A DNA stretch of 64,000 nucleotides, taken from Puniceicoccaceae bacterium 5H (GTDB taxonomy: Bacteria; Verrucomicrobiota; Verrucomicrobiia; Opitutales; Oceanipulchritudinaceae). The translations under genes and the position numbers were made by a program. Below are positions 7,090 through 59,020 of the stretch, one piece after another. Below the pieces are notes generated by a model that was not told the DNA's origin, made no database searches, and was given only the letters and a program-made list of their open reading frames with translations. The DNA lies in assembly GCA_009772895.1 (NCBI GenBank), contig WOUP01000003.1, forward strand, positions 186,001 through 250,000. Reading direction: 5' to 3'. Numbering within the stretch: position 1 is the first letter of the stretch; every line of letters begins with the position of its first letter.

Positions 7090-7116
7090 AAAAAACCGAC
7101 CCTCTAATGGAGTCGG
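7090..7116 (-). terminator. Terminator downstream of rpmA
   Basis: CCGAC (7096-7100) pairs with GTCGG (7112-7116), and six A residues lie at 7090-7095. On the minus strand this is a short GC stem followed by U6, located 37 bases past the rpmA stop. Confidence 0.6.
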
Positions 7117-18546: not shown

Positions 18547-18590
18547 AAAAAAAAGACCGACTCGTCGAACGAATCGACGAGCCGGCTTTT
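18547..18590 (-). terminator. Terminator of the SDR/Gfo/GH88 operon
   Basis: A 12-base stem with one mismatch (18557-18568 with 18574-18585) and loop ACGAA is preceded by eight A residues (18547-18554). On the minus strand it is a strong stem with U8 ending the operon whose last gene stops at 18627. On the + strand the stem is followed by CTTTT, so it may be bidirectional. Confidence 0.82.
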
Positions 18591-29841: not shown

Positions 29842-29885
29842 TCTTGTCTGGACTGTGATGAGGTCGTGGTAAATTCAGCAGCAGG

Positions 29886-55228: not shown

Positions 55229-56209
55229 CTACCGAGCCCGCGGCTCGAGCAGTTGCAGGCTGAAGCGCTCCAGTGGGTCCGTCCAGACACGCGCTGGCCG
55301 CAGACCGGCCTGCTCGGCAATGCGTCGGAAGCCTTCCCGCGTGAACTTGTGGGAATACTCCGTCAGCAGGTGCTCACCTTCGGTAAACGCAAAACGTTGA
55401 TCCCCCACACACACGGTCTGCTCACGCTGACTGACGAGCCGCATTTCGATGCGGCCCCGCTCGCGGTCGTAGATCGCGTGGTGGTAGAAGGAGGCGATGT
55501 CGATGCGGGCGTTCAGCTCGCGACGGGCTCGCTCCAGCAGGTTGAGGTTGAAGGCTGCCGTCACGCCCGCGCGATCGTTGTAGGCGCGGTAGAGGGTGTC
55601 TGGATCGGTCTGCAAGCCCACCCCGATCAGGACGGCACCGTCGGGCCCGCAAAGCTCGCGGCATTGCTGTAGAAAGCCCACCGCTTCGGAGAGCGTGAAG
55701 TTGCCGATGGTCGAGCCGGGGAAGAAGACTACCGTGCGCTCGGCGGCTCGAGAGGCGGTCGGCAGGTCAAACCGGCTCGTGTAATCCGCGCACACGGGCA
55801 GGATGTCGAGCGTCGGAAACTGCCGGGTCAGCCGCACGCCGGCGCCCTCCAGGTATTCGCGCGCGATGTCGATCGGCACGTAACACACGGGGTCGTCCAG
55901 ATGTTCGAGCAGCAAGTGCGTTTTCATGCTGCTGCCGCTGCCAAATTCGACCACGCGGCAGCGCGGCCCGAGGCGGGCGGCGATTTCATCCAGATGGCGG
56001 CGCAGGATGCCCATCTCCGTGCGCGTGGGGAAGTATTCCTCCTGCTCACAGATCTGGTCGAACAGTTCCGCCCCGCGCGCGTCGTAGAGGTATTTAGGCG
56101 AAACCTGCTTTTGCGGTCGGCTGAGGCCTTCGATGAAGTCCTGACGGAAGGTATCGCGTGCGGGGTTGTAATCGGTGATCGGCAGTTTGGCCGGGGTCGT
56201 CGTGCTCAT
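55229..56209 (-). CDS. egtD: L-histidine N(alpha)-methyltransferase EgtD
   Basis: A 326-residue EgtD that trimethylates histidine to hercynine with SAM. The SAM motif is VVEFGSGSSMKTHLLLEHL, followed by YVPIDIAREYLEG and the SAM-contacting VVFFPGSTIGNFT. LERARRELNARIDIASFYHHA and EGEHLLTEYSHKFTREGF are the substrate-side blocks. I start at 56209 (MSTTTPAKLP). It follows egtB after 13 bases. The pair makes the core of ergothioneine synthesis. Confidence 0.93.
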   Translation of the reverse strand: MSTTTPAKLPITDYNPARDTFRQDFIEGLSRPQKQVSPKYLYDARGAELFDQICEQEEYFPTRTEMGILRRHLDEIAARLGPRCRVVEFGSGSSMKTHLLLEHLDDPVCYVPIDIAREYLEGAGVRLTRQFPTLDILPVCADYTSRFDLPTASRAAERTVVFFPGSTIGNFTLSEAVGFLQQCRELCGPDGAVLIGVGLQTDPDTLYRAYNDRAGVTAAFNLNLLERARRELNARIDIASFYHHAIYDRERGRIEMRLVSQREQTVCVGDQRFAFTEGEHLLTEYSHKFTREGFRRIAEQAGLRPARVWTDPLERFSLQLLEPRAR

Positions 56210-56222
56210 GGGGTCCGGGGGC

Positions 56223-57521
56223 TTAGGCGTCCTTGGCGAGGCGGATACCGGTGAACTGCCAGCGCTTGTCGGGTTGGAAGAAATTGCGGTAGGTCGCGCG
56301 GATATGGCTCTCTGCCGTGGCGCAGGAGCCGCCGCGCAACACATACTGGTTGCACATGAACTTGCCGTTGTATTCCCCGAGGGCGCTGAATGCCGCTTCA
56401 TAGCCAGGGTAGGGGGCGTAGCTCGTTCGCGTCCATTCCCACACATCGCCAAATACCTGCCGCAGCGGCCCGGGCGCATCCTCCTGGACGGGCGTGGGGT
56501 GGAAGTGGCGGTTCTCGACGAAATTGCCCTGGATCTCCTGTCGGCGGGCGGCGATCTCCCATTCGTGCTCTTCCGGCAAACGCGCGCCGGCCCAACGGGC
56601 GTAGGCCGCCGCCTCGAACAGGCTCACATGGCACACGGGTTCGTCCGGGTCGAGGTCGCGCAGGCCGGAAAGCGTGAAGACTTTCCAGTCGCTGCCCTCC
56701 TGCTGCCAATAGAGCGGAGCCTGCCAGCCCTGTTCCTGCACCGTCATCCAGCCGAGGGACAGCCAGAACTCCGGCCGTTCATAGCCGCCGTCACCGACGA
56801 ACTCGAGAAACTCCCGATTGGTCACGAGGCGATCGGCCAAGGCAAAAGGCTGCGCGTAGACTTTGTGGCGCGGGCGCTCGTTATCGTAGAAAAAGCTGTT
56901 GTCGTCGTCCTGGCCGATTTCCTGCACGCCGCCTTCGTAGGCCACCCACCCCTGCTTGCCGGGCTGGCCGCGCGGTACGGTATTGAGCTGGTAGACCGGG
57001 AACATCGGGTTTTGCGCGAATACGTGCTTGATGTCCGTTACCATCAGCTCCTGGTGCTGTTGCTCGTGGTGCAGGCCGATGGTAATGCGTACACGCCAAC
57101 GCTGGAAGGTCTGCTCGTCGGCGGTGCGCATGAAGTGGAGCATGCCGCGGTCAACCTGCTTGCGGTAGTCCATCACCTGGTCGACGGTCGGGCGCGAGAT
57201 AACGCCGCGTTGGGAGCGGCAGTGCATCGGCCCGGCGGCCTGATAGTAGGAGTTGAACAGGTATGCGTACTCCGGCACCGGGTTTTTGTAGTGCGGGATC
57301 GCCTTGCCGAGGATGAAGGTTTCGAAGAACCAGGACGTGTGGGCGAGGTGCCACTTGGTCGGCGAGACTTCCACGACGGTTTGCACCACCATGTCTTCGG
57401 GGTGCAGCGGCGCACAGAGTTCTTCAGTAAAGCTGCGAACGGTCAGGTAGCGTTCGATCAAGGCCTCGCGTTCGGCGCTGAGCGCGGCAGGTGAGGTTTC
57501 CGGGGCGGCGGTCGGCTTCAT
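56223..57521 (-). CDS. egtB: Ergothioneine sulfoxide synthase EgtB
   Basis: A 432-residue non-haem iron enzyme that joins hercynine to a cysteine donor. The N-terminal DinB-like domain has the iron-ligand pattern KWHLAHTSWFFE and HHEQQHQELMVTDIKH. The C-terminal domain is of the formylglycine-generating-enzyme type (VWEWTRTSYAPYPG, RGGSCATAESHIRATYRN). Whether the donor is cysteine or gamma-glutamylcysteine cannot be read here; no egtA or egtC is in the window. The start at 57521 is preceded by a U-tract and a hairpin, not by a Shine-Dalgarno sequence (see 57525-57558). Confidence 0.93.
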   Translation of the reverse strand: MKPTAAPETSPAALSAEREALIERYLTVRSFTEELCAPLHPEDMVVQTVVEVSPTKWHLAHTSWFFETFILGKAIPHYKNPVPEYAYLFNSYYQAAGPMHCRSQRGVISRPTVDQVMDYRKQVDRGMLHFMRTADEQTFQRWRVRITIGLHHEQQHQELMVTDIKHVFAQNPMFPVYQLNTVPRGQPGKQGWVAYEGGVQEIGQDDDNSFFYDNERPRHKVYAQPFALADRLVTNREFLEFVGDGGYERPEFWLSLGWMTVQEQGWQAPLYWQQEGSDWKVFTLSGLRDLDPDEPVCHVSLFEAAAYARWAGARLPEEHEWEIAARRQEIQGNFVENRHFHPTPVQEDAPGPLRQVFGDVWEWTRTSYAPYPGYEAAFSALGEYNGKFMCNQYVLRGGSCATAESHIRATYRNFFQPDKRWQFTGIRLAKDA

Positions 57522-57524
57522 GAC

Positions 57525-57558
57525 AAAAAAAGGCTGAGGTTCCGCCCGCTTCTCAGCC
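57525..57558 (-). terminator. Terminator-like hairpin immediately before egtB, candidate attenuator
   Basis: On the minus strand GGCTGAG (57558-57552) and CTCAGCC (57538-57532) pair perfectly around a 13-base loop, followed by seven U residues (57531-57525). The U-tract ends three bases before the egtB ATG. It has the form of a rho-independent terminator but sits where the ribosome binding site should be. Confidence 0.6.
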
Positions 57559-57693
57559 GCATCGATGCCAATCGAACGTTTGGAAGCCGATCTGAGGGAT
57601 ACCCGGCAAGCTCTGGCCCGGCTGCAGTAGAAGCGCCCAGGGCAAAGGGTGCAGGATGCAGGCGATCAGCGCGCAGGCTGCTCTGCAGGCACC

Positions 57694-57722
57694 AAAAAAG
57701 CAGGAGCCGAAGCCCCTGCTTT
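57694..57722 (-). terminator. Terminator of the dipeptidase gene
   Basis: AAAGCAGGAGC (57698-57708) pairs with GCCCCTGCTTT (57712-57722) with one mismatch and a short loop, with A residues from 57694. On the minus strand U residues follow the stem, 29 bases past the dipeptidase stop. Confidence 0.8.
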
Positions 57723-57751
57723 AGATGTAACGAAGGTAGGAGGGTAAAGTC

Positions 57752-59020
57752 TCAGGAGGCCTGCGCCATCTCGTCGGCGACGCGGCGGGCCTCGGACAGC
57801 ACACGCATGGCGTTGCCGCCCCAGAACTTGCGCAGATCGTCTTCAGTATAGCCACGCCTCAGCATTTCAACCGTTACGTTGACGTAATCGCCGACACTCA
57901 TCAAGTCTTCCGCGCCGCCGCCACCATCAAAATCTCCGCTAATACCCACATGATCGATTCCCATAACCGAGACCATGTGGTCGATGTGGTCCACAACTTC
58001 TTTCAGCGGCACGAGCGGCTTCGGAAACTGGCGCTCGATTTCGATGCGCGCCTCGGTGGCCTCTGCCTTTTCGGCGTCGCTCAGGGATTCCCAGTCATGG
58101 TATTTCTGGAAGTAATCCTGGTAGGCCTGGCTGCGCTCGGGATTGTCCTGCGGGTCCATCATGTAGCCGCTGAAGACGTTCATCTGCACCACGCCGCCCC
58201 GCTTGGCGATGGCCTTGAGCAGGGCGTCGTTGAGGGAGCGCGGGTGCGGGTAGCAGGCGTAGCAACCGCTGTGCGAGGCGATGATCGGCGCCTTGGAGTG
58301 CTCGAGGATGTCGTAGACGGTCTTGTCGCCCGCGTGCGAAATATCGACCATGATGCCGAGGCGGTTGCATTCCTCCACCGCCGCGCGACCGAGATCGCTG
58401 AGGCCGAAGTGCAGCTCGCCCTCCTTGTCGGTCGAGGAGTCGGCCAGGTCGTTGTTGCTGCTGTGCGTGATGCCAAAATAGCGCACGCCGAGATCGTAGT
58501 AATCCTGCAGCAGCCCGATGTCCTGACCGATGGTGTAGCCGTTTTCGATGCCCATGAAGATCACGTGCTTGCCGTCTTCACGCAGCTTTTCGGCCTCCTC
58601 CGGGGTGGTGGCGATCCCGCACTCGTCGGGATGGGCTTCTGCGACCGAATGGATGGTGTGGGCGATGGAAAAGCCTTCCTCGATCGCGGCCTTGCGCCCC
58701 TCGGGCGTGAGCGGCCCCTGACCGACGTAGACGACGAAGAAGCCACCGTCGAGATGCCCCTCGTCCATGCGCGGGAAGTCGACCTGGCTGGCGTCGTCTT
58801 GCCAGGTATGGGCTTCGGAGATGTCGAAATCGGGGCGGCGCAGCACGATGGGCACGTCCATGTGCGTGTCGATCGTGAGGAAGCTGTCCATGAGACGGAC
58901 GGCTTCGTCGTGCAGTTTCTGGTCGGACCAATCGGTGCGCGGCTCGCCGGACTGAGCCTGGGCGGGCGCCAGCGGCAAGAGCGTTGCCATGGCCAGGAGA
59001 AGAGTGGAGACAGGTTTCAT
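57752..59020 (-). CDS. Secreted membrane dipeptidase (M19 family)
   Basis: A 422-residue zinc dipeptidase with a signal peptide (MKPVSTLLLAMATLLPLAPAQAQ). Metal ligands expected in M19 appear as TIDTHMDVPIV (His-x-Asp), VIFMGIENGYTIG (Glu), MVDISHAGDKTVYDIL (His) and PIIASHSGCYA (His), with GISGDFDGGG near the end. It cleaves dipeptides in the periplasm. It lies 22 bases behind gamma-glutamyltransferase, so the pair can release amino acids from gamma-glutamyl peptides such as glutathione (Cys-Gly cleavage). Dipeptides with D-residues are also substrates in this family. Confidence 0.93.
   Translation of the reverse strand: MKPVSTLLLAMATLLPLAPAQAQSGEPRTDWSDQKLHDEAVRLMDSFLTIDTHMDVPIVLRRPDFDISEAHTWQDDASQVDFPRMDEGHLDGGFFVVYVGQGPLTPEGRKAAIEEGFSIAHTIHSVAEAHPDECGIATTPEEAEKLREDGKHVIFMGIENGYTIGQDIGLLQDYYDLGVRYFGITHSSNNDLADSSTDKEGELHFGLSDLGRAAVEECNRLGIMVDISHAGDKTVYDILEHSKAPIIASHSGCYACYPHPRSLNDALLKAIAKRGGVVQMNVFSGYMMDPQDNPERSQAYQDYFQKYHDWESLSDAEKAEATEARIEIERQFPKPLVPLKEVVDHIDHMVSVMGIDHVGISGDFDGGGGAEDLMSVGDYVNVTVEMLRRGYTEDDLRKFWGGNAMRVLSEARRVADEMAQAS

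Follow-up and report, generated by a model that had tools for sequence, protein, structure and literature searches.

In the 64,000-nucleotide window of DNA analysed here, the minus strand carries, in order of transcription, a dipeptidase-like gene, a terminator (T1), a stretch of 135 nt, a second hairpin followed by a run of T residues (T2), the trinucleotide GTC, egtB and egtD. The products of the last two genes both scored above their NCBIfam equivalog cut-offs. The dipeptidase-like gene, for which we keep the label given in the earlier note, had no match in the NCBIfam scan, and a 78% identical match was found in a genome of the same genus. The features considered below are the following:

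55229..56209, minus strand: egtD (TIGR03438 equivalog, 383.2 bits against a cut-off of 290.9)
56223..57521, minus strand: egtB, with its ATG at 57521 (TIGR03440 equivalog, 562.1 bits against a cut-off of 360)
57518..57563, minus strand: 14-codon open reading frame, MRLRSGRNLSLFLS, whose TGA overlaps the egtB ATG (ATGA)
57525..57558, minus strand: T2, probable weak intrinsic terminator (perfect 7-bp stem, 13-nt loop, T7)
57559..57693, minus strand: T1-T2 leader segment (promoter score at the level of coding DNA, no Rfam match at gathering score)
57694..57722, minus strand: T1, terminator behind the dipeptidase-like gene (8-bp stem, TTCG loop, T6)
57720..57748, minus strand: best promoter-like site, weak (TTTACC-17-TCTAAA, predicted start near 57713)
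57752..59020, minus strand: dipeptidase-like gene, the open reading frame upstream of egtB

Genes and start codons at the egtB locus

The third-position GC content of egtB (0.83) and egtD (0.81) lay inside the range of a 464-kb genome sample, composed of the window and 20 stretches of 20 kb each from the same genome. A search of this genome for EgtC, as a possible clue to the sulfur donor, returned two matches only, both far below the cut-off; similarly weak matches appeared in 10 of 14 control genomes and no control exceeded the cut-off, which left the search with no positive control, and its outcome has no bearing on the T2 hairpin.

The position of the hairpin relative to egtB depends on the start codon. 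The earlier note had considered a true start further downstream, and the sole other common start codon ahead of the conserved core of EgtB is the TTG of residue 21. Homologues align upstream of this TTG: residues 15-20 were aligned in 57-77 of 97 homologous loci, and R18 was identical in 38 of the 66 loci covering that residue. The downstream alternative was rejected on these grounds, and the alignments make the ATG at 57521 a well-supported start. The same note had also placed the hairpin where a Shine-Dalgarno sequence would be expected, and such a site is indeed absent before egtB. This absence nonetheless says little in favour of an attenuator, since such sites were not clearly enriched at the predicted starts of this genome. 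Of 352 starts in the window and stretches L120-L139, 54 (15.3%) had a four-base Shine-Dalgarno core within the preceding 20 nt, compared with 14.0% in shuffles, and 23 (6.5%, compared with 4.6%) had a five-base core, values diluted by our own gene calls, which combined open reading frames with codon usage and took the longest start. GGAG and GAGG were slightly raised at -18 to -13 (11 and 15 starts, compared with 2-9 and 5-12 in the other bins), and overall there was no clear sign that starts in this genome generally carry Shine-Dalgarno sites. A scarcity of these sites is reported for some Verrucomicrobia (PMC10783764), the phylum to which this bacterium presumably belongs, judging by the relatives of its egtB.

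Form, strength and placement of the T2 hairpin

T2 consists of a 5' arm GGCTGAG (57558-57552), a 13-nt loop (57551-57539) and a 3' arm CTCAGCC (57538-57532), directly followed by seven T residues (57531-57525). The description from which this work started, a perfect seven-base stem with a U7 run ending three bases before the egtB start, thus proved correct to the base, and so did the separate terminator that it had assigned to the dipeptidase side at 57694-57722, whose stem comprises 8 bp including one G-U pair (10 bp counting two A-U pairs).

The folding energy of T2 is weak (-10.9 to -12.3 kcal/mol) and, taken alone, ordinary for its composition (z -0.23). The stock terminator scan, which is loose in its definition but limits the loop to 8, did not list T2 with its 13-nt loop; it detected 11 terminator-like sites in 14 kb where shuffles averaged 9.7, which is no excess. 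A strict T7 form was examined as well, with a perfect stem of at least 7 bp, a loop of at most 15 and a run of seven T beginning no more than two bases from the stem. Eight such sites, T2 included, were present in the 464-kb sample and none in any of ten dinucleotide shuffles; when the stretch 57519-57751 alone was shuffled, the form arose in 2 of 5000 replicates. A genome-wide search for the two arms of T2 with their 13-nt gap gave a single mismatch-free site. Since the strict combination of stem and T7 exceeds what shuffles produce, T2 is very probably a genuine intrinsic terminator, and it would be expected to terminate transcription inside the cell.

Its placement was then compared with that of the 49 strict terminators of the sample. 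Behind which gene a terminator stands was judged from stop-to-stop frames, which are not proven genes, sought only within 120 nt upstream. For 40 of the 49, a frame of at least 110 codons ended 6-97 nt upstream (median 33), and four of the other nine lay 27-36 nt behind frames of 75-97 codons; T2 is among the five left with no such upstream frame. It is found 193 nt behind the dipeptidase stop codon, with T1 in between at the usual place, and the longest frame ending nearer to it has 58 codons and ends 107 nt away. The distance from the T2 stem to the egtB start downstream is just 10 nt. Only two of the 49 are weaker than T2, whose energy of -11.2 kcal/mol compares with a median of -19.2 kcal/mol. 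Because of the 193-nt spacing, and because T1 already occupies that place, T2 is not positioned like an ordinary 3' terminator. It does conform to the position rules of Naville and Gautheret, under which a premature terminator has the orientation of the downstream gene and lies within 300 nt of, and nearer to, its first codon; its position and weakness together agree with such an element. According to the same study, 5' terminators are weaker on average (PMC2965389), and the low energy of T2 relative to the median fits a leaky 5' terminator.

Orphan 5' terminators do not appear to be a house style of this genome, an idea that was mostly rejected when three of the five initial other candidates proved to follow genes or long frames. 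The terminator at 18585(-) stands behind a C-terminus that we take to be SDR-like, that at 7116(-) behind one presumably of ribosomal protein L27 type, and that at 29842(-) behind an open frame 110 codons long or longer. The two at L126:1345 and L132:8437, in other sample stretches, still stand as orphans, and L133:17616 and L138:727 are further terminators with no long frame at the usual distance.

One of these stretches deserves mention in its own right. Some 190 nt at L126:1187-1373 (+), apparently non-coding and 86% identical in the same-genus genome, close with a terminator hairpin of 11 bp and gave no Rfam match at gathering score; about 220 nt further on lies a gene resembling that of a manganese catalase. 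This stretch is likely to be an unnamed small RNA or leader, and control at the RNA level is more plausible for it than for the hairpin before egtB.

Possible transcripts into T2 and the search for a signal

The consensus promoter scan listed no site in the egtB upstream region. A rougher sigma-70 score was also applied, with approximate E. coli weights; with this score, the free upstream regions of this genome had a median of 6.72 (n=95) and coding windows one of 3.91 (n=232). The best score between T1 and T2 was 3.79, a value reached by 48% of 288 coding windows and by 83% of 95 free upstream regions. Further upstream, the site at 57748-57720 scored 8.08; in stretches of 236 nt, 6.4% of 266 coding windows scored at least as high, as did 46.7% of 90 free upstream regions. 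Its -10 element lacks what we take to be the two most conserved bases, and the site is only a lead. Its predicted start, near 57713, falls within the 5' arm of T1, so transcripts from it would skip, and thereby disarm, T1 and meet only T2. A literature search for promoter maps of this lineage gave nothing usable.

On this basis, we consider T2 to be a weak premature intrinsic terminator in the 5' leader of egtB, most likely passive, and give this reading a probability of about 0.5. RNA polymerase that passes T1, or starts within it, would meet T2 just before the egtB start codon; part of the polymerases would stop there and the remainder would read on into egtB-egtD. T2 would in this way lower the basal level of egtBD rather than switch on a signal. 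The sequence of T2, its position, the excess of its form over shuffles and its weakness compared with other terminators of the sample are observations; that T2 terminates in the cell, where the polymerases would come from and that no sensor is involved are inferred.

The earlier note had gone further and proposed an attenuator that could tie ergothioneine synthesis to a metabolite or to ribosome loading. In a regulated attenuator of this sort, the leader would fold into terminator or antiterminator in response to a metabolite, a protein or ribosomes. The structural half of that proposal stands: the egtB leader does contain a terminator-like element, which has the orientation of egtB, comes after T1 and lies far closer to the start codon ahead than to the stop codon behind; the regulatory half found no support and seems unlikely to us. 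The position and weak stem of T2 fit such a device, and in the best leader fold CUCAG (57596-57592) can indeed pair with CUGAG (57556-57552), part of the T2 5' arm. At equilibrium, folds other than T2 were favoured in leaders starting at 57589 or further upstream (mean T2 pair probability 0.000-0.133 over 14 start points), against 0.93-0.99 for T2 in leaders starting at 57581 or later; with such competing folds, termination at T2 might be slight. However, this suppression of the hairpin was no greater than that seen in shuffled sequence. Among 300 shuffled leaders, T2 was no more likely than the observed 0.069 in 70%, and its 5' arm was covered at least equally well in 75%. An alternative leader fold is thus present, yet no stronger than in shuffles. 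With the Rfam 15 covariance models, no match reached gathering score in the window, and the two matches far below it (E 3 and 3.6) belonged to families of other kinds.

Translation of the short frame MRLRSGRNLSLFLS would be another way to act on the hairpin. Its ATG lies 5 nt before the T2 stem, or 14 nt if an upstream TTG is used, and it contains no His or Cys codon, so that it is not a leader frame rich in codons for the amino acids of the pathway and translated ahead of the terminator. Overlaps of this kind between a frame and a start occurred at 34 of 281 starts, and the 14-codon frame is likely due to chance. We also put low the idea that a leader peptide melts T2, with a stem beginning 5 nt behind the ATG; in E. 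coli, translation lowered the efficiency of a terminator situated 30 bp downstream of a start codon by no more than about 10% (PMC4824070).

A pathway-wide sensor might be expected to recur at other egtB loci, and we found no such recurrence. No terminator-like site lay within 100 nt of the start in the best 80 of 583 confirmed places of egtB relatives in public genomes, in 16 further loci (a 17th was a fragment with no start) or in the one locus from the same order, that is, in none of 97 other loci, all of them distant and with starts assigned by nearest match. At locus L050, a site was present 131 nt upstream of the start. Two pairs of loci, L031 with L166 and L032 with L150, have the same 30 nt upstream, and each pair probably represents one genome encountered twice. 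Conservation of an attenuator across egtB loci was rejected on this count, which argues against a device shared throughout the pathway but carries no weight against a local one; the absence of the element elsewhere is as expected for a local feature. The relatives of this EgtB found at E 1e-60 in its order and class are 51-68% identical, which makes the upstream DNA unalignable, and they gave no usable covariation set for T2. Taken together, a fold at shuffle level, the lack of Rfam matches, the 97 loci and a short frame with neither His nor Cys give no support to the suggested link to a metabolite or to ribosome loading, and nothing found points to a sensed signal at the egtB leader.

The distribution of egtB itself was also examined. 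At E 0.001 or better, EgtB was matched in 33 of 55 genomes (best value besides its own genome, 7.9e-22), with none in the same-genus genome; at E 1e-60, it was matched in 1 other genome among 372 members of the order and in 15 others among 384 members of the class. EgtB is therefore patchy, and the gene was possibly transferred. In the same-genus genome, the gene downstream of the dipeptidase-like ortholog converges on it and is of a different type; the window's next neighbour, a gene of fumarylacetoacetate-hydrolase type, has its relative there on another contig. Either egtBD would have been inserted beside the dipeptidase-like gene here, or it would have been lost in the same-genus relative.

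About as unlikely as the regulated attenuator is that T1 and T2, which lie on the same strand, form a tandem pair in which T2 is a back-up 3' terminator closing the upstream unit, with egtBD driven from elsewhere. Two strong terminators less than 300 nt apart do occur in this genome, behind 3 of 363 predicted genes, the dipeptidase-like gene included. The spacing of T2 from the stop codon is, however, well beyond the usual one, and a promoter below T2 would need to be leaderless; the best promoter-like site there scored 5.24, with a 19-nt spacer and TTTTTT as its -10. We regard as improbable, and somewhat more so, a small RNA of about 150-190 nt that would start near T1 and end at T2, the egtBD mRNA being its read-through. 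The predicted start near 57713 would suit it, and this genome has a conserved, apparently non-coding stretch with a terminator at its end at L126, but the matches of the leader in the 54 other genomes searched were all short, the best covering 24 nt (E 3.1e-4) and the one in the same-genus genome about 47 nt (80%, E 0.004), and the leader folds less stably than most of its shuffles (z +1.03). We would give a similarly small chance to T2 being a fortuitous hairpin beside a T run that terminates nothing in the cell, to which its ordinary stem energy, the strong competing folds and the unremarkable loose scan lend themselves, against the excess of the strict form over shuffles. Equally doubtful is a dual gate, in which T2 would both terminate and cover the ribosome landing site in the read-through mRNA, to be opened by the competing fold or by translation of the 14-codon frame; if true, ergothioneine synthesis would be governed by an RNA switch particular to this lineage.

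Comparison with known premature terminators

Leader-peptide attenuators occur in amino acid operons, and the egtB leader resembles them in having a short frame over T2 whose stop lies on the egtB start. It is unlike them in the late start of this frame, in its codon content and in the commonness of such overlaps here. RNA-level control of ergothioneine genes was not apparent in titles and abstract openings of the literature, which are a thin basis for calling it unreported.

The strong putative attenuators of Naville and Gautheret (2010; PMC2965389) are found before members of one gene family in several species, unlike T2, which does not recur at the 97 other egtB loci. The exapted, or 'mobile', attenuators of that study (PMC2965389) offer another comparison, in which T2 would be a local terminator left before the gene by a rearrangement. 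The patchy distribution of egtB and a place beside the dipeptidase-like gene not common to the same-genus genome are like those cases; unlike them, T2 has no second copy in the genome, and the eleven imperfect direct repeats found around it include none that is telling. The closest likeness is to its premature 5' terminators (PMC2965389), which share with T2 the strand of the downstream gene, a place near the first codon and nearer to it than to the upstream gene, and a lower strength than 3' terminators. As it stands, T2 changes no general picture and belongs to a kind of element already known. Should it stop transcription in the cell, it would add another case to the premature terminators and hint that egtBD may be low-expressed in this bacterium unless relieved.
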